Positions 16,981 through 64,000 of a stretch of DNA of 64,000 nucleotides are shown one piece after another; position 1 is the stretch's first letter, and every line of letters begins with the position of its first letter. A model generated the notes under the pieces. The model saw only the letters and a program-made list of their open reading frames with translations. It was not told the DNA's origin and did not search any database. Position numbers and translations under genes: made by a program. The stretch covers positions 144,949 to 208,948 of the forward strand of contig RSEH01000034.1 in the NCBI GenBank assembly GCA_006503475.1, given 5' to 3'. This DNA comes from Stentor roeselii (lineage: Eukaryota; Ciliophora; Heterotrichea; Heterotrichida; Stentoridae).

Positions 16981-18183
16981 CTAATATCCCCATTCAAGAT
17001 AAATGCACTCTGGGTATTTATCCTTCCATTCTCTTGCTTGAGGTGAGCGATGAATATCAGCATACTCACAACTTAAATTTTCAAGGTTTAAAACTTGAAC
17101 TAAATAAATAATACGATCTTAATATAAATGACCTATTTTTCTTTTACAGTCTTAAATATCTTCTACTATCTTTTTGGTAAGATACAAGCTTATTCAAAGT
17201 TTACATCCTTCTAAATGTATATCACCCCCTGATTATAATTTGCAATCTTATTAGAAGTAACCTGAATATTCCTTACAATAAAAAGTATATTTTCCATCAT
17301 TTGAAAATAGTAATTCCTTGAACCATTTACATGTCGTTTCAGCATTTCGTGCGAAATTAGTTATAATAAACCCTATTTTTTCGTGCTTGGTCTTTGGCTT
17401 AATTCCTAAATATCAAAAACTATTGATAATAAGCTGTGATGCACTAGGAATCAAAGAATTCCTGTTAACTATGACCTGAAGTTCTTCAATCTTTTTTTCA
17501 CTTTGTAATTGTTGATTTTTTAAAGATTTTATTTCTCCTTTCAGAGCTTTCGGATTTTTTCTGAATTAATTACCTTTATTATTAAATTTTCCTTTTAATT
17601 CTTTTAATTTACTCTCAAGTTCATTAGCTCTATCAGTCTCTTGCTTCATTTCTAATTGATGTTGCTGGGTTATTATTTTTTTCTCATCTTCAAGTTTTAT
17701 AATCTTTGCCTGAAGTTCATCGATAGACTTTCTCAATTCTTCAATCAGAATTAAGTTGGGATGAACAGAAGTTTTGACTTTAGGTCTTTGAAAATCTTTG
17801 TTTATCTTATAAACTTCACCAATCATTTTCACTTGGTCTATGATAAAAGAAATCCTTTTTTTATCGAACTGAAAAGGTTTGACTTGGTCAACATTTTTAT
17901 TATTCTTTTTGAAATCTGATACAGCTTTACTTGAAGCTTCTTTAAGTGCTATAATTATTTTTTGGGTTTCATTTACCATCTCACTTATTAAGTTTTTCTT
18001 AAATTGCTTTACTTGTAAACGAGATTCTTCAATTGTTGTCTGTAATTCAAGTTTTACTACATTGTGATTTTTTAGGTCCTTGGCATGTAAAATGGCATGA
18101 TCTCCACACATAAATAGTTGTGGACGGCATGTTGGACATTTAAAACTTGCCTTATCATCGCATCGATCTCTATAGCAAAGCAT
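16981..18183 (-). CDS. B-box zinc finger / coiled-coil protein with a tiny-intron array
   Basis: The first 205 codons encode a Cys/His cluster (LCYRDRC...CPTC...MCGDHAILH, B-box-like) and a long coiled coil. The frame then meets a TAA at 17566-17568 but continues as coiled coil in the same phase (GEIKSLKNQQLQSEKKIEEL). A TGA at 17413-17415 sits inside a perfect 15-nt GT...AG intron (17406-17420). Later stops fall in nine consecutive 15-16 nt units (17100-17261). With these removed the protein runs through SNDGKYTFYCKEYS, DWEGSYNYLQVLNLENL and ends AREWKDKYPECIYLEWGY, TAG at 16981-16983. The C-terminus matches the gene at 62125-64000. The TAA at 17566 is unresolved: a 27-nt GT...AG segment (17547-17573) would remove it in frame; otherwise it is a nonsense mutation or sequence error. 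Function unknown. Confidence 0.65.
17100..17261 (-). other. Array of nine consecutive 15-16 nt introns with single-codon exons
   Basis: Reading the minus strand from 17261, nine units follow each other: 17247-17261, 17229-17243, 17211-17225, 17189-17204, 17170-17185, 17151-17166, 17133-17147, 17118-17132 and 17100-17114. Lengths are 15,15,15,16,16,16,15,15,15. All end in AG. All begin GT except the second, which begins GC (GC-AG). The sequences between them are 3,3,6,3,3,3,0 and 3 nt. Joined, these spacers continue the open frame (S-D-W-E-G-S-Y-N-Y-L-Q-V) and remove every in-frame stop. The intron lengths match those known for heterotrichs. Splicing is inferred from frame and homology, not observed. 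Confidence 0.75.
17406..17420 (-). other. 15-nt intron
   Basis: GTTTTTGATATTTAG on the minus strand. It contains an in-frame TGA. Removing it keeps the frame and joins the coiled-coil exon (QLIIN) to IKPKTKHEKIGFIITNF. Confidence 0.8.
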
Positions 18184-36162: not shown

Positions 36163-37467
36163 CTAGCTATTGTAGATTAGTGTCAAGTGGCGCTTTTTTA
36201 ACATTCGCACGTGTTTGTACCCGCAAATCATCAGGGTTATCAGGATGAGACTCATGATTGAAATCAAAGAATAGATCCAGGTCGGGATGTCGATTTCGCT
36301 GTGGACTGATACAACGTCTTGACATCGGTAAAGATAGCTTCGGTCATTTACATAAGTTTCGAAAATCCAGAAATTATAATCACCGTACTCTGGACGGTCA
36401 AAATCGATGCTGTTGTTGAGGTAGTTGTAGTACTGGTTCGCTAATACTATTAAACTTCGCTTTTTGTTGTTGAATGTCAGGTGGTAAGGCCAGAGTACGT
36501 GCTCGTCGTCTATCACATGTTTCAAAAAATAAACTAAAAAGTATTCAGGATAAGGCATCATCTGCTCGTAGAAATAAACGTTGCTTTTTTGAAGATCACT
36601 CAAGTACATGTTGCCTTTTTCTGATATAATTATTCCCTTACTTGCTGTATTCTTGTAACCTAAGTTCATGACTTTCGACTCTAGTTCATTCCCAGGGTTC
36701 CTCAGAAACTGAGTAGAAATAGTGAACAGGTCACGACTTGTGATAGGAGAATAATAAAGGTCTCTTTTATCACAACTCAAAGCGATTCCTCCTAATCCCT
36801 GACTCAACTGTTTCGATTTAAATATTCTTGAACCATTCACAGTGATCCAAAACGACGGGTCAGGAACAGCTGAATGATGATTAATCAAAAAAACTGAAGA
36901 AAGCTTTTCTCTTAAATTAATCACAATCAAAGCCTCCTGCCCCATGTCACTTAAATAAGCGAATTTCCTGTCAAGGTCAAGGGCCATGTCAACTATTTGA
37001 CTTCTGTCAATCGTCACATTTGAAAAATCGAATCTTTCAAGAATCAAGCCGGATTCTGCCATTTTGATTAAAAGTTTCGCTTGTTCATCGACTAGCCAGA
37101 AATATCCTTCAAGGTCGATTTCGAAGGCTGAGATTGACTTGAAACCTGAAGGGTTTGACAAATTGTTCATCCACCAGTCAGGAAAAGGTCTTAAAAGGAC
37201 TTTTGAGTCGTCTTTTGTTATTTCTGAAAGAGTTGCTGGGATTCCTGGGGAAGCTCGAGGAACTGCTATGAAATATCGGTCGTCTGAAGTGACTTGGAAA
37301 CTTGTGGGAATCGCTTTTGTGTAGGACAAGGAAACCATGTAAGCTGTTAGGTCAGATGAGGAATTGAAGGTAAAGTTTAGCCAGTTGAAGCCGAATAGCA
37401 GTTCTGCTGATACTTTGAAGAGGATTTGGATGAGGACTAAGGTTTTAATGAGTGAGAACTGTGCCAT
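36163..37467 (-). CDS. Yellow / major-royal-jelly-like propeller, membrane-anchored
   Basis: 434 residues. A signal peptide (about 1-21, IKTLVLIQILFKVSAE) is followed by a six-bladed-propeller-like lumenal domain with family marks: YFIAVPRASPGIPATLSEI, LLRPFPDWWMNNLS, SAFEIDLEGYFWLVDEQAKL, FAYLSDMGQEALIVINL and GGIALSCDKRDLYYSPITSR. These fit the MRJP/Yellow family, best known from insects and some bacteria, fungi and protists. One membrane helix near the C-terminus (about 403-424, IYSLISIMSLILITLMICGY) leaves a short basic tail. Predicted to sit in the secretory pathway or at the surface. Ligand or activity unknown. Confidence 0.72.
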   Translation of the reverse strand: MAQFSLIKTLVLIQILFKVSAELLFGFNWLNFTFNSSSDLTAYMVSLSYTKAIPTSFQVTSDDRYFIAVPRASPGIPATLSEITKDDSKVLLRPFPDWWMNNLSNPSGFKSISAFEIDLEGYFWLVDEQAKLLIKMAESGLILERFDFSNVTIDRSQIVDMALDLDRKFAYLSDMGQEALIVINLREKLSSVFLINHHSAVPDPSFWITVNGSRIFKSKQLSQGLGGIALSCDKRDLYYSPITSRDLFTISTQFLRNPGNELESKVMNLGYKNTASKGIIISEKGNMYLSDLQKSNVYFYEQMMPYPEYFLVYFLKHVIDDEHVLWPYHLTFNNKKRSLIVLANQYYNYLNNSIDFDRPEYGDYNFWIFETYVNDRSYLYRCQDVVSVHSEIDIPTWIYSLISIMSLILITLMICGYKHVRMLKKRHLTLIYNS

Positions 37468-37652
37468 GAATAATACATTTTGGAGCTTAATGGGTAGCGA
37501 GAAGAATATTAGAAGGTTTTAATAGAATATTACTGGATCTTCATTATTTAAGTACTTTAAACATTCCCAAATACTTTATTTCAATGAAGACCTTTCATGT
37601 TTAATCACTCCAAGCAAGTCTCTTTACTTATCAACACCTTATAAACTATATA

Positions 37653-39087: not shown

Positions 39088-39092
39088 AAAAA
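39088..39092 (-). terminator. RNA polymerase III T-run
   Basis: Five consecutive T on the minus strand immediately after the tRNA-Ser 3' end, the usual Pol III stop signal. Confidence 0.8.
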
Positions 39093-39173
39093 CGACACCT
39101 GTGAGATTTGAACTCACGCGGGAAATCCCAATAGCTTAGCAGGCTATCGCCTTAACCGCTCGGCCAAAGTGTC
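39093..39173 (-). tRNA. tRNA-Ser (anticodon GCT)
   Basis: 81 nt. The acceptor stem pairs GACACTT with AGGTGTC, with a G discriminator. The D arm contains GGCCGAGCGGTTAAGGC (A box). Anticodon stem ATAGC/GCTAT holds loop CTGCTAA, anticodon GCT. A long variable arm (class II, as in Ser) precedes the T arm GTGAG-TTCAAAT-CTCAC (B box). No encoded CCA. It reads AGC/AGU codons. No intron. Confidence 0.96.
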
Positions 39174-39270
39174 ATCTGGACTTTCCCCTGACAATGAGAA
39201 TAAATACCAAGAATGTCGAATAAAGACTATTCAAAAGTAAAGGTTCAGGAAATAAGTCTAAAATTTTACT

Positions 39271-47741: not shown

Positions 47742-50219
47742 TCATCCTTTCGACTTCAAAATCGTTTTGTAAAACTCAGCAAGTGCAGTCTCTTCTTCTC
47801 TTTTATGCTCCCTGGCAATTAAACTCTGATTCTTTATCGTGTTGGAAGCCTGGTCAAGTGCTTCATTGAGACTCTGCTGTAGCCAGTTCCTATCATCAGA
47901 AGTTGGGCGAATTCCAAGAGACTCAAGTTCATTTTTGATATCTAAAAAAAGTTCTCCTTTCCTGAAGTCAGGGTACATGCGAATCACTTCCATTTTCTGA
48001 CGTTCTTGAGGAGTCAGTTCATTGCTGTCGAAGCCGACTTGTGACAAGCAACAGTAGATACTGGCCCTTAGGTCTCTTTTTCTAACAAAATCAAGTTGCT
48101 TTCTTCTTAACTGGCTCATTTCGCTTTGCTTTTCAGCTTCTTCGAGAGCTTCTCGCAACCTGTCGAAGCCCTTCGTGCTCTTCGGCTCGGTGTAGGCCAG
48201 AGGACGCTGAGGGTCTTTGAGGACTCGGTCTTCTGTGTAAGAAATGCCCAGTCGGTCTTCTTCTTGCTCGTAGACTCTTATTAGAAGTTGTGGCGCGTTG
48301 GCCATGTCTTTACGCGAGTTCCACTGGGTGAAGGAAAGTTTGCCTCGCTGTACTTTTAGCAATTTGCATAAACAACTGATGATCAGACGACGATGCACTT
48401 CGAGGCAGTCGTCTAAAAAGTCGAGAACTGAACTGATACCTTCGATGTCGATGAAGTGCAGAGTACTGCGCTTGTTTGATAAGACACTGTGCCATAAACA
48501 GTCGAGTAATGATAGCAAAAATTGGTCTGGCTCACCGTTTACTGTTGGGGGAAGAGGCTTTAGGTTTTGCTTTAGAACCTCGATCCAACCTTTTCTTCTT
48601 ATTTCTTTTTGGTTGTCTCTGCAGTCTTTGCAGGCGTTTGATACTATGCTTAGAGCGAGTTCTCTTGCATGTAGAGGGTAGTCTGCCTCACTCTGCACGA
48701 TATCAAGCAAAGTATCAAACAGTCCTTCTTCAGCAAGTTCCAACTTAAACTCCCCACATTGCGAAGCAATCTCCAAAGCTTTTAAAGTCACAAGTTTCCT
48801 TTCAATATCACTATAAGTCGACAAAAAATGCACCAAGCAATAATTCCCATTCTGCTGCTGAAAGTGTTCCTGAAACAACGGCAATATATGAAAAATATTA
48901 TGCAAAGTATGTACCTGCAGTTCTTTAACTTCTGGGTCCTGCCATCGAGAAATAGTTTGATTATTCTGACTAGGGTCCAAATAAAGTAAAAGTGCGGGTA
49001 AAAAGTCAGAGTTTTCCACAATACTAATCGCTTCAGGAATCCCACTTGACACTGACCTGCAAATAGCAGTCCAAACAAGTTTCTTAAACTCAAGGTCTTC
49101 AATTTCAGTTGTCCACATCGGTTTTCCCCCATTCCCTGAACTGGCCAAGTGTATCTCATCATACGAGCCATAACGAATCAGCTCTTCCAAGAAGCTCTCG
49201 CTGAAGTCATCTTTAGTCAAAAGAAATCCATGAGTTTCCGGTCGAGCCACAACAGAAGTGATGAGAATCATCAGCTCATTACGTAACTTCCGGTCAGTCA
49301 ACTTGTAACCGTCTTTTATCACCTTTTGAAGAGTCCAACGAAGAGACAGCAGAAGTTCTTCTCGGGCGAGACTTTTTATTGAGTCTTCTCCTGACTGTTC
49401 GAGAATGTTCCAGATGCACTCGATGCAGATGCTGACAAGCGGGTCTCGAAAGTTGGGAATATTGCAGACTACCACGATCAGGTCTTTCAAAGCACCCAGT
49501 TCGCCGATTTTCATGGCTAAAGGCTCGAAAACGGATAAGGCTGAAATCGTTTGGACTACCTGGGCGGCGATTTCGTATTGACTTACGTTATCTGCTAAGA
49601 CATGTACTAGTCCTTCGGGGATAGTCGTCGCTGAAATGGCTTGCAAGTACTTTGTGCCTTTTTTTTTCACTATATTCATGAAGTTTTCTTCAGAGGCGTC
49701 TGCTGAGGTCTTGGTCTTCGCAAGAGAGTCTCCCTTTATCAGGTCCAGATCTTTTTTCGCGAACTCGCTGACAAGGGCGCAGAGGTTGACGATCACTTCG
49801 GAGTTGCTGGGAAAGTCTTTTTGTAGAACAGGAGTGAGACTCTGCAGGAATTTCTTTAAAACAGGAGTGTAAATGAACTCGTCACTCATTTTTTCCTTTT
49901 GAAAGTCCTTTTTGCAGTGATTTATCAGTCTGCAAAGCGGGTCGATTAGTTCAGAAGATTTGAAAGACTCTTCACCATCTCCAGTTCGTTTCGTGGAAGA
50001 CTGGACATGGTCCAGGTCCTCACTGCCAGCTTTGATGCGATCGAGTAGCAACTGAATGATGTGTATCACTTTATCCAGTTCCTTATAAGGGAAACCGTCA
50101 GCATAAATTGACTTCTGACTGCAAACTCTTCGAATCATTGCAGCATGTCGATCTTTTATCTCTGAAGTGTGACGAGAAGTCATCAACTCGATGACTTTGT
50201 CCAGCGTGACTTGACTCAT
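47742..50219 (-). CDS. CFAP69: CFAP69-like cilia- and flagella-associated protein
   Basis: 825 residues, almost all helical with armadillo-like repeats. It resembles CFAP69, a central-pair (C1b-region) axoneme protein, in overall size (animal proteins are about 940 residues) and in segments such as SIVENSDFLPALLLYLDPSQ, KELQVHTLHNIFHILPLFQE, WNSRKDMANAPQLLIRVYEQ and FRKGELFLDIKNELESLGIR. A C-terminal coiled coil (AREHKREEETALAEFYKTIL) ends the protein. Fits an organism with motile cilia, as does the dynein gene upstream in the window. Start codon is 37 bp from that of the divergent mitochondrial-carrier gene. Confidence 0.8.
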   Translation of the reverse strand: MSQVTLDKVIELMTSRHTSEIKDRHAAMIRRVCSQKSIYADGFPYKELDKVIHIIQLLLDRIKAGSEDLDHVQSSTKRTGDGEESFKSSELIDPLCRLINHCKKDFQKEKMSDEFIYTPVLKKFLQSLTPVLQKDFPSNSEVIVNLCALVSEFAKKDLDLIKGDSLAKTKTSADASEENFMNIVKKKGTKYLQAISATTIPEGLVHVLADNVSQYEIAAQVVQTISALSVFEPLAMKIGELGALKDLIVVVCNIPNFRDPLVSICIECIWNILEQSGEDSIKSLAREELLLSLRWTLQKVIKDGYKLTDRKLRNELMILITSVVARPETHGFLLTKDDFSESFLEELIRYGSYDEIHLASSGNGGKPMWTTEIEDLEFKKLVWTAICRSVSSGIPEAISIVENSDFLPALLLYLDPSQNNQTISRWQDPEVKELQVHTLHNIFHILPLFQEHFQQQNGNYCLVHFLSTYSDIERKLVTLKALEIASQCGEFKLELAEEGLFDTLLDIVQSEADYPLHARELALSIVSNACKDCRDNQKEIRRKGWIEVLKQNLKPLPPTVNGEPDQFLLSLLDCLWHSVLSNKRSTLHFIDIEGISSVLDFLDDCLEVHRRLIISCLCKLLKVQRGKLSFTQWNSRKDMANAPQLLIRVYEQEEDRLGISYTEDRVLKDPQRPLAYTEPKSTKGFDRLREALEEAEKQSEMSQLRRKQLDFVRKRDLRASIYCCLSQVGFDSNELTPQERQKMEVIRMYPDFRKGELFLDIKNELESLGIRPTSDDRNWLQQSLNEALDQASNTIKNQSLIAREHKREEETALAEFYKTILKSKG

Positions 50220-51840: not shown

Positions 51841-52361
51841 ATATTATTGAAAGTAAAAATAATGATAATTTTAACTGTAATCAATGTCTTCAAATAGAAC
51901 TTTATCAAGACTAGTTTCGAAAAACTGCCCAAAAGGGTCGATCGGTTCAGTTTGATAAATTTACAATAGAAAAATTTATCTAATTAATCATATCATTTAG
52001 TAGTATAATATGTAAAGCTAATGTAAATATATTTAAATAAGCACTAAGGCAAGAGATATTCTCGGATTAGTATTAATGGACTTTGATAAATTAACTAATC
52101 CTTTCCTATTAATATAATAGAATCAACCTTAAATGTTTTCATCTTATAACATAAATTCGTTTTCATAAACCACTTTGAAATCCTATCAAAACCCATGAAA
52201 ACTCCGAATTCCTATTTTTTTTAGCCATTCACTTCTCAGAAACTATTCATATCATCTTGAAGTTCCTAGAACAGCTGTTTTCTCAGGTAAAAATACATAC
52301 GCATCAAAATGGGTTGAGTTTGTTTTCCAATAAAAATCAAAGCCATCTTTATTTTTAATAA
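51841..52361. other. AT-rich non-coding start of the gene-poor tract
   Basis: Contains the left part of the diverged repeat described at 52100-54300. No gene seen. Confidence 0.6.
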
Positions 52362-54300
52362 TTAGTTATTTGTACTTGAAAACACTCGAATCTTTGAGTG
52401 CAAATATAAAGAACAACTTCTTTTAACATAAGGAACATTATAAACTTTAAAAAATCGAAATCGCCCGGCTGGGTGGCCTTCAAAAATTTCCATTTCGATT
52501 TGAATTTTATCGTCTCGCTGGTCAGAATCATCAGCGAGAGTCCATCGAACTTTCACTAACGTGCTATACAAAAATTTGAATCTAGTTAATTATAAATTAA
52601 CTTTAATATTATGAAATCTGATTGGAAAAGTACCTCAAAAGGGCCAAAAGCAAATATTATCTACAGGCAAACATCTAAGCTGCCTAAAATTTATATATTA
52701 ATCCTTCCAATTTCAATAAAATAAATAATTCTGGAATCACCTAAGATATTCATTGTTCTAAACCTAAATTTTTCCTAAAAATCATGTTTTTAACCAAACT
52801 TAGTAAATTTATATATGTTTTTCAACCATTTTTCCTTTTTAATGAACAATTGTTCTAAGTTCTACAAAGCTCAAGAAATTAGGAAAAAAATCAAGAATCT
52901 AATCTCAAGAAAGAAACTAATCATTCCATTTTGAATTTGAAGTAGAACGGTAAAGTTTTACTCCTTGAAAATAAGTCCAATACAAGAAAATCAGTTTTTT
53001 ATGCTAGATTGATGATCATATTTCTAGAATTTCTTCTTTACAAGATTGAATTAGAAGCACATGATTTAGATCTTTAAGTTTCTCAATCGATTTTATGATA
53101 AATTATTACCAAATTGTCCAAAGTCTTTTTTTCAGAGAAAATTCGAAGACAAAAATTTTTGGGTTAGCCTTTATCAAGACTGAGAATAAACTTAAGCTGG
53201 CACTTATTTTCAACTTAATCATAATGAGAAAAAACTCTTAAGCTGGATTCAATTCCTTTAAAATCCTATAAGAACCCATGAAAACTCCAAATCCCTATTT
53301 TTTCGGCCATTCACTTCTCAGGAACTATTCATATCTAACACCTGAAATCTAATCCAGTTTTCCTATCATCTTGAAATTCCTAGGATAGCTGTTTTCTCAG
53401 GCAAAAATACATACACATCAAAAAGTTCTAATTTTTTTTTTCAAAATGGGTTGAGTTTGTTTTCCAAGAAAATCAAAGCCATCTTGTTTTTAATAAATCA
53501 GTTATTTGTTCTTTAAAACACTCGAATCTTTGAGGGCCATTATAGAAAACAACTTCTTAAAACTTAAGGAACCATATAAACTTTAGAAAAGTGCCTAAAT
53601 AGCAACCATAATAAATTATACTCAGATTAATTTCAGATAAACTTTGAACACAAATTAATTCTTACTATTTCAATCAAATAAATCAAGTTAATTAATAGAA
53701 TCAATCTTAGAATGTTTTTTCTCTTCTAAACTTGATTCTTTTCCTAAAAATCATGTTTTTAGCCAAACTTACTAAAGTTTATATATGTTTTCAACCATTT
53801 TTCTTTTATAATAACCCATTTTCCAAGTACAAAAAATTTCAAAAACTCAGAAAACAATTTTTAGAAACTCATCTTAATGAAAAAGTGATTGATTGCCCTT
53901 CATATTTGAATAAATGTAAAAGTTTTTCTTCATGATTGTGAATGAAATAGAAGAAAATCAATTTTTATACGATAGATTGATGCTCATCTTTCGAGAATTC
54001 CGCATCATCTAGATTGAATCAGTTGCATATGAGTTTGAATTTTAACTTTATCAAGCAATCTTATTAGAAATCGTTATCAAGTTATCCTAAGTCTCTTTTC
54101 CAGAGAAAATCTAAAGTCGTCCTCTTACATCAAAACTGGTAACAAATTTAAGCGAGGGCTTAAATTCAACTAAATCGTTATGATTAAAAACTCTTAAATC
54201 TAATCCTATTCCTTTCCAATCCTACCAGAATCCATTAAGAATCCGAATCACTATTTTTTCGGTCATGTACTTCTCAGAAGCTATTTATATCTAAGACTTA
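52100..54300. repeat. Diverged tandem repeat, about 1-kb unit, 2-3 copies
   Basis: A block starting near 52184 (CATGAAAACTCCGAATTCC...CATTCACTTCTCAG) recurs near 53276 and, weaker, near 54232. A second block near 52780 (TTTTCCTAAAAATCATGTTTTT, TTATATATGTTTTTCAACCA) recurs near 53742, and a third near 53000 (GATTGATGATCAT) recurs near 53978. The order is kept, so this is an old tandem duplication of roughly 1-1.1 kb units with indels. No intact ORF spans a unit. Confidence 0.75.
52362..52571 (-). pseudogene. Orphan protein-like segment
   Basis: A 69-codon open stretch without an ATG start. Its first two thirds look like real protein (VKVRWTLADDSDQRDDKIQI, then EIFEGHPAGRFRFFKVYNVP) with GC content above its surroundings. 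The protein-like part is missing from the paralogous repeat copy at 53500-53600, where only the 3' side aligns. Probably a gene fragment. Family not recognised. Confidence 0.4.
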
Positions 54301-54495
54301 AAATCTAATCCAGCTTACTATCAAACAAAAACTTAACCAATTAAAAATTAATTGATTAAAAGTTCCCAAATTAAGTAAATCACTGATTGAGTGTTAAAAA
54401 AGGAATAAATTTAAATGACTCAATTTTAATTACCTGATATAAAAAAGGAAATTCAAACAATATAATCCTAAAAAAATTCCTTATCTTCAAACATA

Positions 54496-54728
54496 AAATT
54501 CCTTCAACCAGTACTGAAGTCTCAGTGGAAGGTCTTTTACTCAATGCTGCCAATTTCAAAGCAAGTGAAGATTTTCACTCCATTTAAAGACAAGCGATTA
54601 ATAGTAATCTCAACAAATGTGGCAGAAACCTCAGTGACAATTCCCGAAATCGTCTAATTAGTCAACTCAGGCCTAGAAAGCGGAAAATATTTCCATCCCT
54701 GCTTCAAATTAGCAAGTTCATCATAACT
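54496..54728 (+). pseudogene. DEAH-box RNA helicase fragment
   Basis: The + frame reads YSMLPISKQVKIFTPFKDKR, then STNVAETSVTIPEIV, then a TAA, then LVNSGLESGKYF. This matches helicase motifs IV-V of DEAH-box RNA helicases (ATNVAETS-L-TIP-x-I-x-Y-V-V-D-x-G), closest in feel to the DHX37/Dhr1 group. Only about 75 codons remain and the flanks do not continue, so it is a decayed fragment. Confidence 0.65.
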
Positions 54729-54731
54729 TTC

Positions 54732-54932
54732 ACCAGTATCAAGTTTTTCTTAGAACTTTTTCTCTCCCTTTCCTTCCTCATGGCCATGACAGCGTCTTTT
54801 TGAGCGGGGTAGTCCATGATGTGCTTTTCCTCTTCCGCCTGCGAATCATTTCCTATCTTTAGCTTCTGGAGGTGATTTTTATCCTCGAGTTCATCCTCAA
54901 GGTTGAATCTAGATTCTTAATTGAAGACTTTT
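54732..54932 (-). pseudogene. Fragment of a charged helical protein
   Basis: Minus-strand reading gives ESRFNLEDELEDKNHLQKLK, IGNDSQAEEEKHIMDYPAQK and DAVMAMRKERERKSSKK, clearly protein-like and GC-richer than its surroundings. It has no start and is preceded by TAA. Opposite in orientation to the helicase fragment next to it. Parent gene not recognised. Confidence 0.4.
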
Positions 54933-55244
54933 TATACTTGAGCATTTCCAGGAGTAACGATTCTTGGGCTCATAATTATCCTTCTGATAGGCTGACTTTA
55001 CAAGCATCAGGAGGGTGGACTATACCTATACTTCTGCTACAGCATATTACTTGATCTCAGAATTGAGGGGACGTATGGCACCCGCCTTAGTCTACCCGTC
55101 AGGAGAAGCCTGAAAGCCAATAAGAAGCCTTGAAGAACTTAAATCTTATTCTTTTTGAAATTTAGGGAAGGATTAACTAAATTAAATGGGTTGTCTTTCT
55201 CGGCATATTCTTATCTTAATCTTTTATGGAACAATATAATAAAT
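54933..55244. other. Non-coding or decayed sequence
   Basis: GC content is higher than in true intergenic DNA here (around 55000-55110), suggesting decayed coding sequence, but no frame is convincing. It precedes the repetitive coiled-coil gene. Confidence 0.4.
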
Positions 55245-56251
55245 ATGGAATCATCCGAATCTAGGGGTCAGATACGTGAAGAAAACAAAGATACCGAGGA
55301 AGTCGAGAAAGGCAAGGAGCAGACTGTGAAAGAAGTTAAAGAAGAACTAATTGAGCTAATGTCAGCTCTGAGGTGCATTGTGAAAGCAAGAGAAATCAAG
55401 GTTTCTGGGTTTGTATCTTCATGTGAGCATAATTCAAAGATGTGTATGTCTAAGATTACTGAGGTTCAAGCTTCGTGTGAGGTAAATGTGAAAAAAATTC
55501 TATCAATGGGTGATGATATTAAAAGATTGAAGCAGAACTTTGGTAATTTGAATAAAAGTTTCAGACACTTTCAGAAAAAGGTTGAAATTCAACTAAAAAA
55601 TCAAACAAAGCATCTAGATAAGCGACTTGGTGACTTTCAGTGTAAAATTGAAGATCAAATAAAAGCCCAAACCAAAGAGCTGAACAAACGAATTAGTGCC
55701 TTTCAAATCTCAGTCGATGATCAAACCAAAAACCAAGCAAGCAAATGGATGACTTTAAGAGCACAGTTGAAGACAAAATCAAAGTTTTAATGAAAACCCT
55801 AGACAAAAAATTTAGTGATTTTGAAAGTAAAGTTGAAGACAAAATCAAAGTTTCAATGAAAACCCTAGACAAAAAATCAAGTGATTTTGAAAGTAAAGTT
55901 GAAGACAAAATCAAAGTTTTAATGAAAACCCTAGACAAAAAATTTAGTGATTTTGAAAGTAAAGTTGAAGATCAAATCAAAGTTTCAATGAAAACCCTAA
56001 ACAATAAATCAAGTGATTTTGAAAGTAAATTTGAAGACCGATTTAAAGATTTTAAAAGTACTGTTGACGAACGATTCAAAAAATTTCAAAGCACAATTGA
56101 CAAGCTCAGAGATTTTCATATCAGTTTTGCAGAATATATAGAAGAAAAAGTATCTCAACAAGATAGGAGAATTGAAAGAATCGAAGAAAAAGTTTACTCC
56201 CTTGATAGAAGGCTGGAAGAAGTGCTTAATATCTTTTTAGGTAAAAAATAA
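55245..56251 (+). CDS. Repetitive coiled-coil protein, interrupted by a -1 frameshift
   Basis: From ATG 55245 (MESSESRGQIREENKD) the frame encodes a coiled coil with a 22-residue period (KRLGDFQCKIEDQIKAQTKE). It ends prematurely at 55790. The same repeat pattern resumes in the -1 phase at 55745 (MDDFKSTVEDKIKV) and runs to 56251, ending LDRRLEEVLNIFLGKK. Adding one base in the AAA at 55743-55745 would join them into about 335 residues. No GT...AG segment does so. Either a 1-bp deletion (pseudogene or sequence error) or programmed frameshifting. Four nearly perfect 66-bp units show recent repeat homogenisation. Function unknown; structural role likely. Confidence 0.55.
55772..56035 (+). repeat. 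Four tandem 66-bp (22-codon) units
   Basis: Exact 66-bp period, 4 copies (264 bp). Copies 1 and 3 are nearly identical, as are copies 2 and 4, so the array grew by duplication of a 132-bp pair. Each unit encodes a coiled-coil segment of the form DKIKVxMKTLDKKxSDFESK. Confidence 0.92.
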
Positions 56252-56610
56252 ATTAGATAAATTGGTTTGAATATTAATAGTTTTTCTTTATGATAAAAGT
56301 TAGATAAATTGGTTTTATCTAGAATATATCTATGTCTGCAGATTTAAATCAAATTCGTTCCAGGCATTTTTTCATATCACCCATATAAACTATATTTAAA
56401 TTTTGTTCTAAGTCACTATTTACAAAAAAAAAATCATGATCCAAAACCTTAAAATGAAATCTTAAATTGAAACTAAATAATCTTAAATTCCAAAACCATC
56501 ATAAACAATCCAAACATCTGAATAAAAACTCTTTTCCTGAATTATATCAAAACTCTTTAAACCCACCCTTGCAACTCATTCATTCAAGTTAAAATTCAAA
56601 CCCAGAATAA
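56252..56610. other. AT-rich non-coding stretch
   Basis: Nothing recognised apart from A/T runs. Confidence 0.55.
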
Positions 56611-57540
56611 ATGAAAGATGTTGCAGATAAACTAGCCCGTTCAACAGATAGAGCAAAAGGAAGAGAACTTGCCGAAAATATTAAAAATTAACCCTCACCT
56701 AGAAAAACGAAGAACAAAAGAAAAAAGCACGCGAAAAAAAATCGAAAGAAAAAAGAAGTAAAAAAAATCAAGCAGGAAAAAGGTATCCAGCCAAACCAAA
56801 CCGACGGAGCCTCCGAAGCAAGAGCCGAAGTCAAGCTCCGAGTACATTAGCGACTTTGAATCGAGTCAGGTTACGAGTTGGTCGAGAGACGACTAGGCGA
56901 CCACTTTGAAAGGCAAGCCAAGAGCAAAAGAAGCCTACATTCCAATCACAGAGGTGTAAGAAGAGGTAGAAACGTCCTACAAGCACCCCCGCAAACAGAA
57001 AAACATTGAGAGTCTCGAAAGAGACCTGCAAGAAAAGGTCCTGGAGTACCTCTGCACTTCAAAACCGCTCTTTTCAAGCACACGTTCAAACCACAGCCAG
57101 TCCGAGTCAGAAACCCGCTGCTGGACCTTCTGAGCTCGTCAATTCAAAAGCTGAAGACAACCAACTAGCTTCTTTCCACTCCTCAGGTCCTCGAAAAGCA
57201 GGCTTTTGGCATCAGTCTCAGAAAACTCGAAGAAGAAGGCGAATGTCAAACTGAAAAAAAAAACACGAAAAAGAAGCTGTAACTTTTCCGACTGTGACTT
57301 TTAATGCTCCTGACAATACCCAGCCTAAAGAAATCTTTATAGACCAGTTCTTAACGCCCAGCTTCTCTGGAAAAGACATATATGAAGCCATAGATGTGTA
57401 CAACAAGTTCGAGACTTTAAACAATCTGCTGAGGGGAAATGTTTTAAAGAAAAGAAGACGAGGTGCTTGAAATTATTGTTGTTCAAAATAATGATGAAGT
57501 GGTCAGGGAGGAAAAAATGAAGAGACTTGAAGCCAGAAAC
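56611..57540 (+). pseudogene. Decayed gene remnant with several frameshifts
   Basis: Protein-like pieces appear in changing frames: MKDVADKLARSTDRAKGREL from 56611, IESLERDLQEKVLEYLCTSK near 57010, TFPTVTFNAPDNTQPKEIFI and FSGKDIYEAIDVYNKFETLN near 57290-57430, and EDEVLEIIVVQNNDEVVREE near 57460. Between them lie stops and frame changes. GC content is coding-like. No domain recognised. Confidence 0.45.
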
Positions 57541-58199
57541 TACTAGATTCGAGGCACCTTCATGCTCTTTTATTGTGGGTGGAGTGTTGCCTACGACTAA
57601 TCTTTACAGGAGGAAATTCATAGTGAATAAGAAACCTTGGAAACGTAAATCAAACGCTTGTAAGAGGGTTAAGTTAATTACTGGCTTTGTCTTTTGGCTC
57701 TCTTATGCTTTGGAAATTCGCTTATGTCTATGAGGTAAAGGGTGATCTCGAGGTTATAGAAAGTCAGCATAATCGGATTACTATTACAGTAACTATAGAA
57801 TCTATAGTAGCAATAGGATCTAAAGAGCATGGAAATTAAACCAGTTACAGTTTCTAAATTATTCAAGTTGTTAAACTGTCGGAAAGCATAATCAAGGAGG
57901 TTCGATAATGGTTTTAAAATTATGGTCAATAAGTCTGGCTTCTTCTGTCCCATCATCACCAAAGGGCTATTCACATGAATTTCATGATTGGAAAGGACCC
58001 GATTTTTCGAAGTACTCAAAAATTCATTAGTTTTTTTTAAGTTTTTCTCCCTTGTTTTTAATGAATTAAAAATATTTCGCTTTTGGAGACTTCTTCTTTT
58101 TTCTTGCTATCTTTCAGACTGGAAAATATTGAAATAGCTCTTAACATTCAACTTTGGCATTCAACACAACTATCTCACATTCACTTAATATTAAGAGAA
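57541..58199. other. Possible continuation of decayed sequence, then AT-rich DNA
   Basis: The first 100 bp may continue the remnant upstream (RGTFMLFYCGWSVAYD in one frame, with TAG/TAA where Gln codons would fit). The rest shows no gene. Confidence 0.35.
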
Positions 58200-58810
58200 C
58201 GACCATGGATTAATTATCTAAAATGTATTAAAACTAATCATCAACATATGCTTTCTTAATTGCATTTAAGAATGCTTGCCAAAGGTTTCCTTCATTTTGT
58301 CTAAACCACAATAAAATTGTCAAGTGTATGACGATAACGAATTAATTATTTAAAAGCGGACTAAACACCTTCATATAATTTGTGTGGGCTCCTGATTCTT
58401 CATCAACAAAGGATTTGGAATGACTTACATTCAAATGATATATTTTTAATCTTAAAGTTGTAATATCCTCGCCACCCATCAGTTATAATGGTTGAATCTG
58501 GATGGACATAATCATTAATAATCTGTTGTAGTTTATAAGCTTTATTATTTTCAACTATTTGCCTCCAAAGTTGCATAATGCATCAACTTTATGACCTTAG
58601 TGATACTTGAGTTTACCAAACTTAGATTTATCTAGTTGAATTTCAATTTCAGGTACACCAATATATTCAAATCTTCATCCATATCAGAAATTATTATTTC
58701 TTCAAATTTACTTATGCATTTAATTTATTCAGACCAGCTATTAAAATACTTGTGTATTAATTTTAAAGATTTCATGTAAGAGATAATAATTTTAATGAAA
58801 TTCAACTTAT
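58200..58810 (-). mobile_element. Broken Merlin/IS1595-type DDE transposase
   Basis: Minus-strand pieces match the Merlin/IS1595 (ISXO2-like) transposase order. Piece 1: EIEIQLDKSKFGKLKYH then GHKVDALCNFGG, first catalytic Asp at about 58630-58632. Piece 2: STIITDGWRGYYNFK, second Asp at 58478-58480. Piece 3: VSHSKSFVDEESGAHTN followed by Y-E-G-V, Glu at 58370-58372. Spacings of about 50 and 36 residues fit the family. The pieces lie in different frames with internal stops (TAA after KYH, TAG where Trp is expected after EGV), so the gene is dead. No terminal inverted repeats or target duplication were identified, so the element's ends are unknown. Confidence 0.75.
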
Positions 58811-59510
58811 TGAATGCTAAAGAAATTAATTATTCCACGTAAAAATGGAAAGTATTCATCTAATTATAATGGAGTGGATTTATCATTCTAATATAGTTGA
58901 AATTCAAATTCTCATTAAAAAAGGAAAAATAAAATATCTACTAATGAAATCAATCAACTAAAAATAACTATTTATTCATTTTCTATACTCAAACTGAAAC
59001 CGGTATATCTATATTTCTGTAAATCAGCCAACTGAAAACCTTTGTCCACCATTTTTCCATAATTCCAAACTTCTAATCTCATAAGATTTCCTCAAAAAAA
59101 GCATAAATTTTCTCAATTTACTTAAATAAGAAATAAAAAAATCGATGAAAAACTTACTCGGGTAAGAATATCTACTTTAAATAATCCAAGAAGCATCCAT
59201 CCTCAAATAATATTAAATTCAATCATATCCCTTCACAATTTCAAATATCTATGCAAACCATTATATCCTCCTCGAAAATCCTAAACTTTTTCACAGAATA
59301 AATGAAAAACTATTTCATACACTCAGCCAAATTCATGAAAATATTCGAAAAGCCAAGCCTTAGTCCTTTTCATGTTAAAATCGCTATACTCCCGTGAATA
59401 CTACCCATCCACTTCAGCCAAATCTGGTATCTGGGAGCAAATCGTCCATCAGATGTAAACTAAAACTTACCTTATTCTTCTACTCTGAAATTTTCAATTA
59501 CTTTTACAAT
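58811..59510. other. AT-rich non-coding stretch
   Basis: No gene seen. The left part may be the 5' side of the transposase element. Confidence 0.5.
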
Positions 59511-60125
59511 ATGAGCAATGACTACTGCGACTACGAAAACCTCGAAAGTCTGCTGACTTCAAGTCCAGAAAGTCTTTCAAAAGTGATTCAGCTTTACATA
59601 AACTTGCATCAAGTCTTTTTAACCTAAGTGCCTTGAAAATCTCTCATTTTAAACTAATACTTTCAAATATTCTCTTCTTCCGAACTGGCAGCGCTGTAAG
59701 ATCATCGGCTTGACCTATTCTTGCAAGAGGAAAATCTACCAGATGACTTCGTCATCGGTGAGTCCCTATCAAAAAGACGTTAAAGACATGGAAAGGATTT
59801 CCTTGAAATCTCCTTATCAAGGCTGTGCCTAGAAGTGAGATGAATGAACTTGAACAGTATTTTTTATCATTGATGATCAGTTCATCAGACTTTACCACGT
59901 GAGGACTTTGCAGAGCTGATCAAGAAGATGATTGCTTCGATTGATATTGATCTTTCAATCGAAGAAATTAAGAGTAACTTACAGGTTATCTTTAAGCATT
60001 TCACCCTGATGGTCTTATGCAAATCCAGCGTATTTCACTTAGAACTTCATATCAGAAGAGAATTAAATAAAATCACAGCTCCTTGGGCTTCTGCACGCGA
60101 GAAATAGTCAGAGGAAGACATGCCT
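59511..60125 (+). pseudogene. Decayed gene remnant
   Basis: A start-like ORF (MSNDYCDYENLESLLTSSPE) ends at a stop. Further protein-like pieces follow in other frames: DHRLDLFLQEENLPDDFVIG, HGKDFLEISLSRLCLEVR, EDFAELIKKMIASIDIDLSI and EEIKSNLQVIFKHFTLM. Internal stops are often TAA/TAG in place of expected Gln codons. Family not recognised. Confidence 0.5.
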
Positions 60126-61600
60126 TAGACCCTGTTGAGTAAATTGCGGTTTCGCGCATTTACCTTCAAAAGCATTCCTCTGTGAACCCTGGAGACTCTC
60201 CTCTTATGTCAGCTTCCAAAAAAACCCACTGGAAACTACTGGGAATGTTGGAAGCCACTTTTAAAACTACAAACAATTCTCTTTTGAGTCTTCCATGAAT
60301 GTCACATGCATTAAGAAGAACTATGAGAATAGAGAACTGCAAAAAGTTATTAATTTTATTTTTTCGCAGAAATGATGGAATTTTCTAATAGAACGACGGA
60401 AAAGTGAGGATTTCAGGATGCGCGTTCGAAAATTCGCTTCTTCTAGGATACAGACGAAGATGAAAGCTTTAAATTGGATGAAAAGATGAAAGCTCGGAAT
60501 ATCAATTATTCAGTTTTGTGCAAGTAGATTCTAGTCTTATTGTCTTCATATCGGCGGGCATCTTTCTTTCTCCAAAATAGAGGATATGAAGAAGGAACTC
60601 AAAATAGGTAGATAAGAGGATGAGCTGTAGATTAATAAATAATTTAATTCAAGTTAAATCAACAGATTCAACTGTCTTCAACTCAGTGTTGATGCTAAAG
60701 AGTTTCGCTGAACCAATCAATAAAAAAAAATCTTCCCCTTTTGAAGCAAGTCGAAGAGTTCAGAGGCCCTCATCCAGAGCAAATAAAAGTCAGTCGATCA
60801 CAAAGTAATCATTTTCATCAATTTCATATTAAAACTTCCAAAACAAACCACCTACTATTCACAAATAAACTTCCAGATGTTTGCTATCAGATTCATATTG
60901 ATGGCGTTGAAAGCGTTTTGATGGGGTAAAACCCAAAAACTCTGCTGATTTAAAACCCGACCAAAAGAATTCGATTGTTTAAAAAACTTGTAGTTGTTGC
61001 GAAATTCGCCTCTGGGAGAGATTGGATTGAATCGCAGGTCTCTGTCTGAAAAATGAATCTTTTACATGTGATATGAGCTAGTTTTCTGCAGACCCTTCAA
61101 AGACAAGAACTTGACTCTTGAATAAGCAGGCCCATGTATTAAGGTTTCTAATTGGAGGCAACGTTTCTGAGGTTCAGTTTTCAGGTCGATTATTCTGCAT
61201 GAGTTCAAAGATGGCAAATATCCTCCGTATAAAAGTACCTTTAATTCTCTAACTTTGCAGCAGATGAAGTTTGAGAAAGTCATTCATTTGAAGTTTAATT
61301 ATCTGCTTTTAAGGATTTTAAGTCGATCAGATCGATGTTTCGCCCAAGGTTGAAAGAAAAATTAGTGCAAAGTTGTTGTTTCTTAAGAGAGAGGACAAGG
61401 AGTTATATCGAAGAAGGATTTTAGAGTTTTTTCAACTTTCAATAGTTCTAGGTTGTAAAGGAATTCATTTTTCTTATTTAAAGACATTCACGAGGTCTGT
61501 CTGTATAATAGAGTCGTTTAGTAAGAATTTAGCTGTTTTTCAACTTTTCTTGAGCTTTCATCAACTTTTTCAAGACTTTTTAGGACTCTGAGTTGATTAG
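60126..61600 (+). pseudogene. Further decayed coding remnants
   Basis: Isolated protein-like stretches in changing frames: QVEEFRGPHPEQIKVSRSQS and LLFTNKLPDVCYQIHIDGVE (about 60740-60930), FKDGKYPPYKSTFNSLTLQQ (about 61205) and KISAKLLFLKREDKELYRRR (about 61350). No continuous frame and no recognised domain. May belong to the remnant at 59511 or to other genes. Confidence 0.4.
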
Positions 61601-62124
61601 CCTTATTAAATAGCTTGTGAAGATTTTTAGATTTCTATTCTTTGGAGCATGTGGTTTTGGCAGGATAATAGGTAGTTGATTATTTAGTATTTTTGATGGT
61701 TGTGTAGCTTTCTGGGAATGTGCTATCCGACTGATAGCATGTGAGATCTTATGTCCGATTGACAGACGTATTTTGAATTTGAACAGGAACAGATAAAGAA
61801 TGGTTTTTCTTTGTAGCCGAATATGCAACATGAGCGAGACATTTTTATCAATGGGTTTAAATTTTAAATCAATAGAAAATTAGGGATATTTAAAAGGAGT
61901 TTAATGAGTAGGTTTTTTCGAGAGGAATTATTTCAATTAATATATTAAAGTAGTAATGCAATAATAATTATAAAACAAAATTTTTTACTGTTAGTATGGC
62001 TTTTCAATCATAAGTTGTTAACCTTTAGAATCATAATTTATATCTGGAATAGGTATTAGTAATTATATAAAAATATAAAGCAAAGCAGAGTCTTTAAGTA
62101 ACTAATCTAATTAACTAGTAATCT
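61601..62124. other. Mostly non-coding
   Basis: A short hydrophobic reading (IFRFLFFGACGFGRIIGS) occurs near 61625 but is not supported as a gene. The rest is AT-rich and precedes the stop of the minus-strand gene. Confidence 0.45.
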
Positions 62125-64000
62125 TTAGTAGCCCCATTCTTGGTACACGCAATCAGGATAGCGATCTTTCCATTGTCTTGATTTTATACTTGTATTTAAG
62201 GCACCATTTAACTCGTTTTTCTTATCCGTCAAGTTGTAAACGAACACTAAATATCTTTTACCTTCTAATCGAATCTACGCCCTTTGTTACCCGTACCATC
62301 TGTTAACCTCTACAATCTTGATTACTGTTACCTTCGTAGATATCACAAGCTGCTGATTAAATCTACGATCTTCATTACTTGTACCTACATATATCGTACC
62401 TTCTGTTTAGAGCTACAGTCTTTTTTACTCATACCTTGCTAGTTAGTACTGCCTAGGTTTTAAACGTACTCCCTACTGCTTATTTCTACAATCTTGGTTA
62501 CTCATACCTTCGGTAGTTAGTACCACCTGCTTCTTAAATTTACCATCTGCTTTAGTTCTACAGCCTTATAGTTTAATACCTGCACACATATCACCTGCTA
62601 TTTTGTTCTACGGTCTTTTTTACCCATACCTTTCGTAGTCAGTACTGCCTGCTTTTTAACCCTACCAACTGATTAATTCTACTGTCTTTGTTACCAATAC
62701 CTTCCATAGTTAGTACTCCCTTCTGTTAAGGTCTACAATCTTCGTTACTTTTACCTCAGTAGGTATTACCTGAATCAGAAATACAATCTTTTCTCTAGAA
62801 TACCTTTGTAATCAATACAAACAAATAAATATAGTCCATCATTTGTCATTTTTATCTCTTTAATACTTCCTTGAAAATTATGTGGGCTATCTTTTCCTGT
62901 GGTCATATTTATTGATAAAAAGTATTGTTTTCTTTCATCTAAACTCTTTGAGTTGAATGCTTTTTAATAATACCTCTCGGGTCTTGTCCAGCATTAGCAT
63001 TTTTTTCTTTTTCAGCTTTTTCTTTTTCTTCTTGTTCTTTTCTTAGCCTTTCCTCTTCTAACTTCCTGAGTCTTTCTTGTTCTTCTCGTTCTTTTCTTTG
63101 CCTTTCTTCTTCTTCTTTCCTTAACCTTTCCTGCTCTATCCTCTGTCTTTCTTGCTCTTCTCTGATTAATCTTTCCTGTTCAATTCTCTGTCTTTCTTCT
63201 TCTTCCTTTCTTAATCTTTCCTGCTCAATTCTGATCCTTTCATTCTCAACTCTGATTCTTTCCTGCTCAATCTTGAACACTTTATAGCCATCAATTTCAT
63301 TTCTGACCTTCTGAGTGAAGTCAATCGCAAACTGGTCAATCATTCCAACATATTGATTTTCGAGTCCAGTGACCTGAGCAGTGATCCTGTCACAGAATTC
63401 AGTGAAACTCACCGTAATTTCATCTGAGCGTTTGGTATACCTTTGCTCAATTTCTTCATTTCTTTTTTCTGTCTGTTCAGACATCGTTTTTCTAAAAGCT
63501 TCCATGACAGTATTCATTTCATTCACCTGCCTGTCAACAGCCTGATTAAGTTGAACAAACCTCAAATTGAGCTGATGTTCCGCATTCCTCTGGAACTCTC
63601 TCACGTTCTGATTGTTCTGCTCGATTCCATAAGCGATGTTAACGAACTTCTGATTGACTTCTTCCAGCACTTGTCCCTGATTTTCAAGTTTATATTCAAG
63701 ATCTCTGACACGAGTCCTGACCTTTTTCGTCTTAGTCCTACTCGTGAGAAGTTCTTCTCTTCTCCTAAAATTATCCTCAATCGCTTTGACTCGACTATCA
63801 AATTCAGCCGAAGTCTGTTGCGCAGAGTCTTCAATCCTCTGAATCCTATTCAAGACCTCTTCTCTATTCGCCTTGTCCATATCAGTTTGACTTCTGACAT
63901 TATTCAAAACTTCATTGCTCTGCTGAAGATGACTCATGATATTCTGAAACTCTGCATTGAAAAGTGCGAAGTCAACAGTGGCGTCTTCCTGGGAGAAGTG
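62125..64000 (-). CDS. Coiled-coil protein with a tiny-intron array, 5' partial
   Basis: The frame is open to the right window edge, so the start lies outside. The first visible about 350 residues are coiled coil, with a Glu/Arg/Gln-rich repeat (RIEQERLRKEEEERQR). The plain ORF stops at 62939, but a 14-nt GT...AG removal (62960-62973) leads into SKSLDERKQYFLSINMTTGK and IKMTNDGLYLFVCIDYK, which parallels SNDGKYTFYCKEYS in the gene at 16981-18183. Then comes an array of about 32 GT...AG units (62247-62803). A long last exon follows (VFVYNLTDKKNELNGALN) and ends SRQWKDRYPDCVYQEWGY, TAA at 62125-62127, matching the other gene's C-terminus. Function unknown; probably a scaffold with a small C-terminal domain. 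Confidence 0.65.
62247..62803 (-). other. Array of about 32 consecutive 14-17 nt GT...AG units
   Basis: The 557 bp can be tiled completely, on the minus strand, into 32 GT...AG units (lengths 14-17, mostly 14 or 15; 30 begin GTA) separated by 22 spacers of 3 or 6 nt and 9 junctions of 0 nt. Every spacer is a multiple of three. Units fall into three classes that recur in order, e.g. GTATGAGTAACCAAG, GTAGAGGTTAACAG and GTACTAACTACCGAAG, most with a TAA(C) like a branch point. Joined, the spacers keep phase with both flanking exons. Taking a second AG 3 nt downstream in some 14-nt units removes the last two stops and gives D-Y-W-N-I-G-N and G-D-W-S-N-Y-P-Y-Y-G. Exact splice sites cannot be fixed from DNA. 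Confidence 0.6.
62960..62973 (-). other. Probable 14-nt intron
   Basis: GTATTATTAAAAAG on the minus strand. Its removal shifts the frame from the terminating ORF into the segment homologous to the sister gene. One nt shorter than the 15-16 nt norm; an assembly deletion in the A run is the alternative. Confidence 0.5.
63005..63275 (-). repeat. Glu/Arg/Gln-rich coding repeat
   Basis: Imperfect repeats of about 42 bp (14 codons) encoding E-E-R-Q-R-I-E-Q-E-R-L-R/I-K/R-E variants, a long single alpha-helix or coiled coil. Confidence 0.85.

Follow-up and report, generated by a model that had tools for sequence, protein, structure and literature searches.

Two paralogous genes on the minus strand of a 64,000-nucleotide (nt) stretch of Stentor roeselii DNA (contig RSEH01000034.1 of assembly GCA_006503475.1, positions 144,949 to 208,948; hereafter the window) each carry an uninterrupted series of minute GT...AG units between their last two long exons. 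We conclude, with a probability of roughly 0.8, that these units are real spliceosomal introns separated by codon-sized exons, 33 of them in gene 1 and ten in gene 2, and that they are removed at the RNA level. The conclusion rests on features that can be read directly from the DNA: the tiling of both arrays, the phase and freedom from stops of the joined messages, the position of the branchpoint, the conservation of the splice signals, the homologous placement of the two arrays, and the higher-order repeats of the larger one. A sequence-only reading of the window had proposed about 32 tiny introns in gene 1. The array in gene 2 was absent from that reading, and we count it as decisive new evidence.

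Two arrays in paralogous genes

On the minus strand, the 572 nt from 62818 to 62247 divide without remainder into 33 units of 14 to 17 nt that begin with GT and end with AG (array 1). The sequence-only reading had recognized the tiling and the range of unit lengths, but the additional intron at 62818-62804 extends the array and raises the count from about 32 to 33. The features of gene 1 are as follows.

62974 to 64000, minus strand: coiled-coil-like exon (judged by eye; no Pfam family), continuing past the end of the window
62960 to 62973, minus strand: inferred 14-nt intron GTATTATTAAAAAG, with an A at position 10 (A10)
62819 to 62959, minus strand: exon upstream of array 1, AFNSKSLDERKQYFLSINMTTGKDSPHNFQGSIKEIKMTNDGLYLFV, ending in phase 1
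62247 to 62818, minus strand: array 1, a GT...AG tiling of 33 units
62804 to 62818, minus strand: first intron of array 1, 15 nt, with A10, following the codon that also precedes intron 1 in the paralogue
62125 to 62246, minus strand: last exon, FVYNLTDKK...QWKDRYPDCVYQEWGY, with stop TAA

When spacers of any length from 0 to 8 nt were allowed, those of array 1 were still multiples of three throughout, as the sequence-only reading had held. Its 6-nt spacer AAGGGA did not survive, because it puts an in-frame TAA into the message in the phase of the flanking exons. Eight units contain two acceptors that lie 3 bases apart, which results in 256 possible tilings, 64 of them stop-free in the phase of the upstream exon. 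All exon lengths are divisible by three, and acceptor choice shifts them only among 0, 3 and 6 nt. The parse that we prefer has 18 units of 15 nt, nine of 17 nt, four of 16 nt and two of 14 nt; 19 of its spacers are 3 nt long and the other 13 are empty. The reading frame divides every 3-nt exon, whose first two bases complete one codon and whose third base opens the next. Under this parse, the joined message is ...MTNDGLYLFV-YYWNIGNRYGDWSNYPYYGL-FVYNLTDKK...QWKDRYPDCVYQEWGY-stop, in phase 1 and stop-free, which agrees with the earlier claim that the flanking exons are in phase with the array. The array would thereby insert 20 residues, YYWNIGNRYGDWSNYPYYGL, between two conserved exons; left unspliced, it contains 20 in-frame stops. 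Upstream, 62973-62960 was the sole GT...AG segment of 11 to 30 nt, among those tried nearby, that links the coiled-coil-like open reading frame (ORF) to the next exon without a stop.

A C-terminal motif that gene 1 shares with a second gene, pointed out in the sequence-only reading and confirmed here by the match between the last exons, leads to gene 2. This gene is read on the minus strand; its ATG is at 18183 and its stop ends at 16981. It has the following features.

17421 to 18183, minus strand: 5' part, with a cysteine/histidine-rich start and a coiled-coil-like stretch (judged by eye)
17406 to 17420, minus strand: single 15-nt intron GTTTTTGATATTTAG, with A10
17277 to 17405, minus strand: exon upstream of array 2, ...KELLFSNDGKYTFY, ending in phase 1
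17100 to 17276, minus strand: array 2, with a unique tiling
16981 to 17099, minus strand: last exon, QVLNLENLS...EWKDKYPECIYLEWGY, with stop TAG

Array 2 (17276-17100, 177 nt) comprises ten units, seven of 15 nt and three of 16 nt, of which nine have a GT donor and one a GC donor. If introns of 15 or 16 nt and spacers of 0 to 6 nt are allowed, exactly one tiling exists, with spacers of 0, 3, 3, 6, 3, 3, 3, 0 and 3 nt, that is, six exons of 3 nt, one of 6 nt, and two junctions at which AG is followed directly by GT. The joined message, ...NDGKYTFY-YWEGSYNYL-QVLNLENLS..., is again stop-free and in phase 1, and the nine residues YWEGSYNYL would be inserted between two conserved exons. The unspliced array has six in-frame stops in its 177 nt. 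A search for direct repeats in array 2 returned 0 families; its units are therefore not the copies of a single detectable founding repeat. At the other end of the gene, the region 18183-17580 (minus strand) is cysteine/histidine-rich and B-box-like ahead of the coiled-coil-like part; the Pfam B-box model matched it only at E 0.59.

The exons that flank the arrays are homologous in the two genes. Both arrays begin after a homologous codon, end before a homologous exon, and interrupt the reading frame in phase 1. Aligned over 39 columns, the last exons share 45% identity, and both close with ...EWGY-stop. Over the last 16 codons, including the stop, the genes differ at 2, 2 and 11 sites at codon positions 1, 2 and 3, a pattern expected for a protein under selection.

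We also considered several candidate relationships that were not supported. A unit-by-unit homology of arrays 1 and 2 gained no support, as 192 of 500 shuffles were at least as similar. An impression of WD40-like blades found no support in Pfam or in a PDB sequence search, which for the gene 2 region returned only matches with E above 1. In bacterial and archaeal genomes, 56 stretches were matched and a single locus was returned, a long bacterial ORF that shares LDERKQYF (32 bits), a match that we judged to be chance.

Chance controls, splice signals and repeats

To estimate how often such chains arise by chance, both strands of the window were searched under strict settings (units of 14 to 17 nt, a GT donor, and spacers of 0, 3 or 6 nt). 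No chain on either strand was longer than array 1. Apart from it, a chain of at least four units occurred only in the paralogue, with seven units (17225-17100), or ten (17276-17100) once the GC donor is allowed. In 60 dinucleotide shuffles of the whole window under the strict settings, the longest chain had four units, and with free spacers of 0 to 8 nt (100 shuffles for each of three settings) it had six. Looser settings revealed three further chains of four in the real window, each with at least one spacer not divisible by three. When each array was shuffled alone 2000 times, the longest chain was six for array 1 (observed, 33) and three for array 2 (observed, ten).

Introns of the related S. 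coeruleus provide a standard for comparison. According to the figures given in PMC9505925, 8173 of 8806 annotated introns (92.8%) are 15 nt long and the rest are 16 nt, the branchpoint A is at position 10 in 8005 introns and at position 11 in 442, and the introns are 75.6% A+U. GT...AG ends are present in all 33 units of array 1 and in nine of ten units of array 2, the tenth being GC...AG; these ends are partly a matter of construction, being requirements of the tiling. A10, by contrast, played no part in finding the units. It is present in 31 of the 33 units of array 1, across all lengths, a count reached by none of 20,000 within-unit shuffles. In array 2, all seven 15-nt units have A10, and two of the three 16-nt units have A at position 11. 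The same A10 is found in the single 15-nt introns at 28073, 37871 and 17420 and in the 14-nt intron 62973-62960. Lengths of 15 or 16 nt account for all ten units of array 2 and, in the preferred parse, for 22 of 33 in array 1. Array 2 is 75.2% A+T. Donors are GTA in 31 of the 33 array 1 units, and array 2 also uses GTT, GTG and GTC. Ends and branchpoint position agree with heterotrich introns in both arrays; for length and A+T content, the agreement is complete in array 2 but only partial in array 1.

The units of array 1 fall into classes that recur in the order A-B-C-D, with variants, and four families of direct repeats are detectable at 60% to 80% identity, with spacings such as 71, 122 and 74 nt. 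Tandem Repeats Finder reported neither array. The ordered recurrence points to duplication of blocks, as the sequence-only reading had proposed from the same pattern, and the repeated blocks are visible. Two classes have enough copies for comparison: B, with nine, and C, for which eight of nine were used (one 15-nt unit was excluded). Columns outside the signals have an average difference of 0.43 between copies within these two classes. GT and AG are unchanged in every copy, a constancy that counts only through the unbroken chain, since the tiling itself demands these dinucleotides; A10 is constant in C and changed in one of nine copies of B. Because GT, A10 and AG have hardly changed next to strongly diverged neighbors, the splice sites of array 1 look as if they are under selection. 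Simulated neutral decay at a matching 26% change per copy left chains with a median of three units and a maximum of 11 (1000 runs). Another argument for selection, put forward in the sequence-only reading, was that the units vary in length and the spacers do not. We find this argument weak. As judged from the unit listings, 57 of the 572 bases are spacer and unit lengths seldom change within a class; few insertions or deletions in spacers would therefore be expected in any case.

Alternative explanations and the gene setting

The core of the earlier proposal, namely tiny spliceosomal introns with codon-sized exons, gains support from array 2, from the agreement with the Stentor branchpoint position, and from the near-constancy of GT, A10 and AG. 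Array 1 is a degenerate tandem repeat, and it might be an ordinary decaying minisatellite whose GT...AG pattern was inherited from a founding repeat and in which nothing is spliced. The direct-repeat families, the non-canonical lengths of 14 and 17 nt, and the non-independence of repeat units, which inflates naive statistics, are all in keeping with this explanation, as is the survival of a full chain in simulations that changed 5% of bases. We consider it unlikely, since the divergence of classes B and C corresponds to simulated chains of no more than 11 units, A10 is retained although the tiling does not require it, and the paralogue has a uniquely tiled array between the same exons with no direct repeats. 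It is also conceivable that each array leaves as one intron of 572 or 177 nt and that the internal sites are relics. The frame is maintained in both genes when the first donor is joined to the last acceptor. However, relics are free to decay, and the conservation of internal GT, A10 and AG against a diverged background calls for a use; introns of this size would also be outside the heterotrich range of 15 to 16 nt published in PMC9505925. This explanation appears quite improbable to us.

Very little probability attaches to an unspliced, translated protein repeat, perhaps with reassigned stops. Such a repeat would have to accommodate the 20 and six in-frame stops of arrays 1 and 2 in a genome that uses the standard code (12 reference ORFs end with TAA in seven cases, TAG in four and TGA in one). 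The 177 nt of array 2 are a multiple of 3, and short unspliced stretches of array 1 do read alike in some copies, yet the spacings of class A units (71, 122 and 74 nt) are not divisible by 3, and in our reading of the variable columns there is no third-position pattern in the unspliced frame. That the units are excised at the DNA level, as the macronucleus develops, and not from RNA is likewise highly improbable. Ciliates do remove DNA, and the 31 units of array 1 that start with GTA share a TA. On the other hand, the unit boundaries are GT...AG and not TA...TA, the donors of array 2 include GTT, GTG and GTC, and 15 nt is less than the 26-28 base pair (bp) class of eliminated sequences described in PMC9942806. 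The position of the branchpoint would have no evident meaning in DNA excision.

Several observations weigh against spliceosomal introns, most of them concerning array 1. It has no tiling from 15- and 16-nt units alone; 14- and 17-nt units are required, and these lengths are absent among the 8806 annotated S. coeruleus introns. The 14-nt intron 62973-62960 makes the 14-nt units less odd, but this backing consists of one other inferred intron in the same gene. Array 1 is also lower in A+T (64.3%), and an A at position -6, which would keep the usual 5-nt tail, is present in only 20 of its 33 units. The A10 signal of array 2 taken alone is modest (eight of ten, P 0.03). Retention of a unit would lengthen the protein and introduce no stop in 15 of 33 cases in array 1 and in four of ten in array 2; selection for stops upon retention is therefore not strongly indicated. 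In the decay simulation, which is a star-tree approximation started from the observed array, the maximum chain rose to 19 at half the divergence and to 23 with 10% of bases changed, and at 5% the maximum was a complete chain of 33.

The comparison of the two genes has weaknesses as well. The 13 aligned codons upstream of the arrays differ at 6, 3 and 4 sites at positions 1, 2 and 3, with no third-position bias, and the four codons downstream differ at 1, 1 and 2 sites, too few to tell. DNA similarity between the arrays does not exceed that of the shuffled control mentioned above. Pfam searches with three proteins, representing the spliced C-terminal regions and the start of gene 2, gave nothing above the cut-off, and no outside relative was found; a scan of viral contigs matched six stretches, none of them related. 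In addition, a TAA breaks the coiled-coil-like stretch of gene 2. Among the GT...AG and GC...AG units of 12 to 30 nt that were tried, only one of 27 nt (17573-17547) removes it in frame. An intron of unusual length, misassembly of an A-run or damage to the gene would each account for this interruption.

Other introns in the window bear on the same question. A crude gene finder, applied to both strands, produced 29 models with scores of at least 12, of which four have introns, six in total. The single 15-nt introns at 28073 and 37871, both with A10, are credible. The remaining four, of 12, 13, 17 and 19 nt, are candidates that are not established, and their odd lengths also count against the spliceosomal explanation. 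The same is true of a scan of the whole window for single introns by coding potential, in which lengths of 15 and 16 nt were no more common than others (13 to 21 nt; 11 to 30 nt). Introns are rare in the window, and the strongest candidates alone are informative in such a scan. The models of both array genes end before the arrays, presumably because the cost assigned to introns forbids chains of this kind.

The window is eukaryotic and gene-dense. Its standard code, taken together with introns of 15 nt, suggests a Stentor-like heterotrich when compared with the data of PMC9505925. Pfam searches of 20 ORFs identified WD40, kinase, RCC1, RPA1-like, CFAP69 and mitochondrial-carrier proteins. Some genes are only tens of bases apart, and the 10 kb from 51850 to 62100, with few ORFs, stand out in this otherwise packed sequence. 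On the plus strand at 55143-56251, two ORFs in different frames, which the gene finder bridged only via two non-canonical gaps, overlap at a 66-bp tandem repeat (4.2 copies, 92% matches). ARAGORN predicted a tRNA-Leu at 49025-49123 (minus strand) within the long CFAP69-like ORF. This prediction is absent from Rfam results at the gathering threshold and is probably false, in contrast to the tRNA-Ser at 39092-39174. Finally, this ciliate-like genome encodes, at 36166-37518 (minus strand), a protein that matches the Pfam domain MRJP (Major royal jelly protein, E 1e-23).

Probable splicing mechanism, array growth and known systems

If the units are spliceosomal introns, each would bring its own donor and acceptor, almost always together with a branchpoint A (position 10 or 11), and the ordinary spliceosome would excise them from the pre-mRNA, with the leftover pieces of 0, 3 or 6 nt joined in phase 1. 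All signals lie inside about 15 nt, and the spliceosome would presumably define a unit without help from exons. Because an exon of 3 or 0 nt is hardly recognizable alone, it would become usable only after the neighboring intron has gone, and removal would proceed stepwise along the transcript. At an AG|GT junction, the departure of one intron would place the next donor right at the end of the exon, much as in recursive splicing. Stepwise or recursive splicing at these junctions is plausible.

Array 1 would have grown by tandem duplication of blocks that consist of whole introns and whole 3-nt exons, to judge from its repeat structure; such growth lengthens the gene and leaves the protein frame undisturbed. 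With every spacer divisible by three and every site in phase 1, skipping of units would also be harmless to the frame. In array 1, all 561 combinations of a donor with a later acceptor give in-frame, stop-free joins, as do 52 of the 55 combinations in array 2; these counts use the preferred parse, itself picked for being stop-free. It is possible, although we hold the idea only tentatively and regard it as doubtful, that the array acts as a frame-safe splicing lattice. It might then yield a family of proteins that vary only in the length and sequence of one segment rich in tyrosine, tryptophan and glycine, and might evolve by gaining and losing intron-plus-codon blocks, like a minisatellite that is invisible to the frame.

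Tiny introns of heterotrichs (S. coeruleus and Blepharisma) share GT...AG ends and an A at position 10 or 11 with the units of both arrays, and lengths of 15 to 16 nt and AT-richness with those of array 2 and in part with those of array 1; Stentor also shares the standard code (PMC9505925, PMC9942806, PMC11441545). Unlike the contiguous runs of 33 and ten described here, with exons of 0 to 6 nt and with 14- and 17-nt units in array 1, introns in S. coeruleus are sparse: PMC9505925 reports that 18% of genes have any intron and that most of those have one. In the same source, Nuadthaisong et al. point to annotations of more than eight introns in some S. coeruleus genes and express uncertainty over whether all of these introns are functional. 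Micro-exon genes of Schistosoma also have many very short exons, mostly multiples of three, like the exons of both arrays (PMC10526429). By that account, these genes encode secreted proteins and have 10 to 20 such exons per gene, of up to 81 bp with 15 bp being most common, separated by introns of 0.1 to 5 kb. Here, the introns are 14 to 17 nt long, each 3-nt exon is split between two codons, and no long introns separate the micro-exons.

An AGGT mechanism exists for the gain of introns by tandem duplication. Tandem genomic duplication that yields new introns has been described as single events (PMC4974935), whereas repeated duplication of intron-plus-codon blocks at one site seems likely here. 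Acceptors followed directly by donors are also known from recursive or dual-specific AG|GT sites, as in Drosophila ratchet points and the human polyubiquitin gene UBC (PMC10809524, PMC8605326). In UBC, tandem AGGT sites allow a variable number of monomers to be spliced in, and the sites bound coding monomers (PMC10809524). The 13 such junctions of array 1 (preferred parse) and the two of array 2 instead bound introns of about 15 nt, with nothing coding between them.

To our knowledge, micro-exons of a single nucleotide or of 3 bp are single cases, as opposed to nineteen in a row in array 1. Exons of 1 to 3 nt are reported from Arabidopsis, Fusarium and Drosophila hth (PMC4674806, PMC12940212, PMC7392893). 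Among the papers listed in our literature searches, not all of which were aimed at arrays, we found no description of an intron array with single-codon exons.

In models of how exons and introns are recognized, an exon has to be long enough to be seen and the spliceosome is taken to need room. If the present reading is true, each intron would be recognized from within about 15 nt, and dozens of splicing cycles, probably ordered, would take place on one 572-nt stretch. The arrays would also offer a concrete route for intron multiplication, in which an intron is duplicated with a codon attached. Paralogues with ten and 33 units make this route testable, and Stentor is described as having both RNA interference and a genome.

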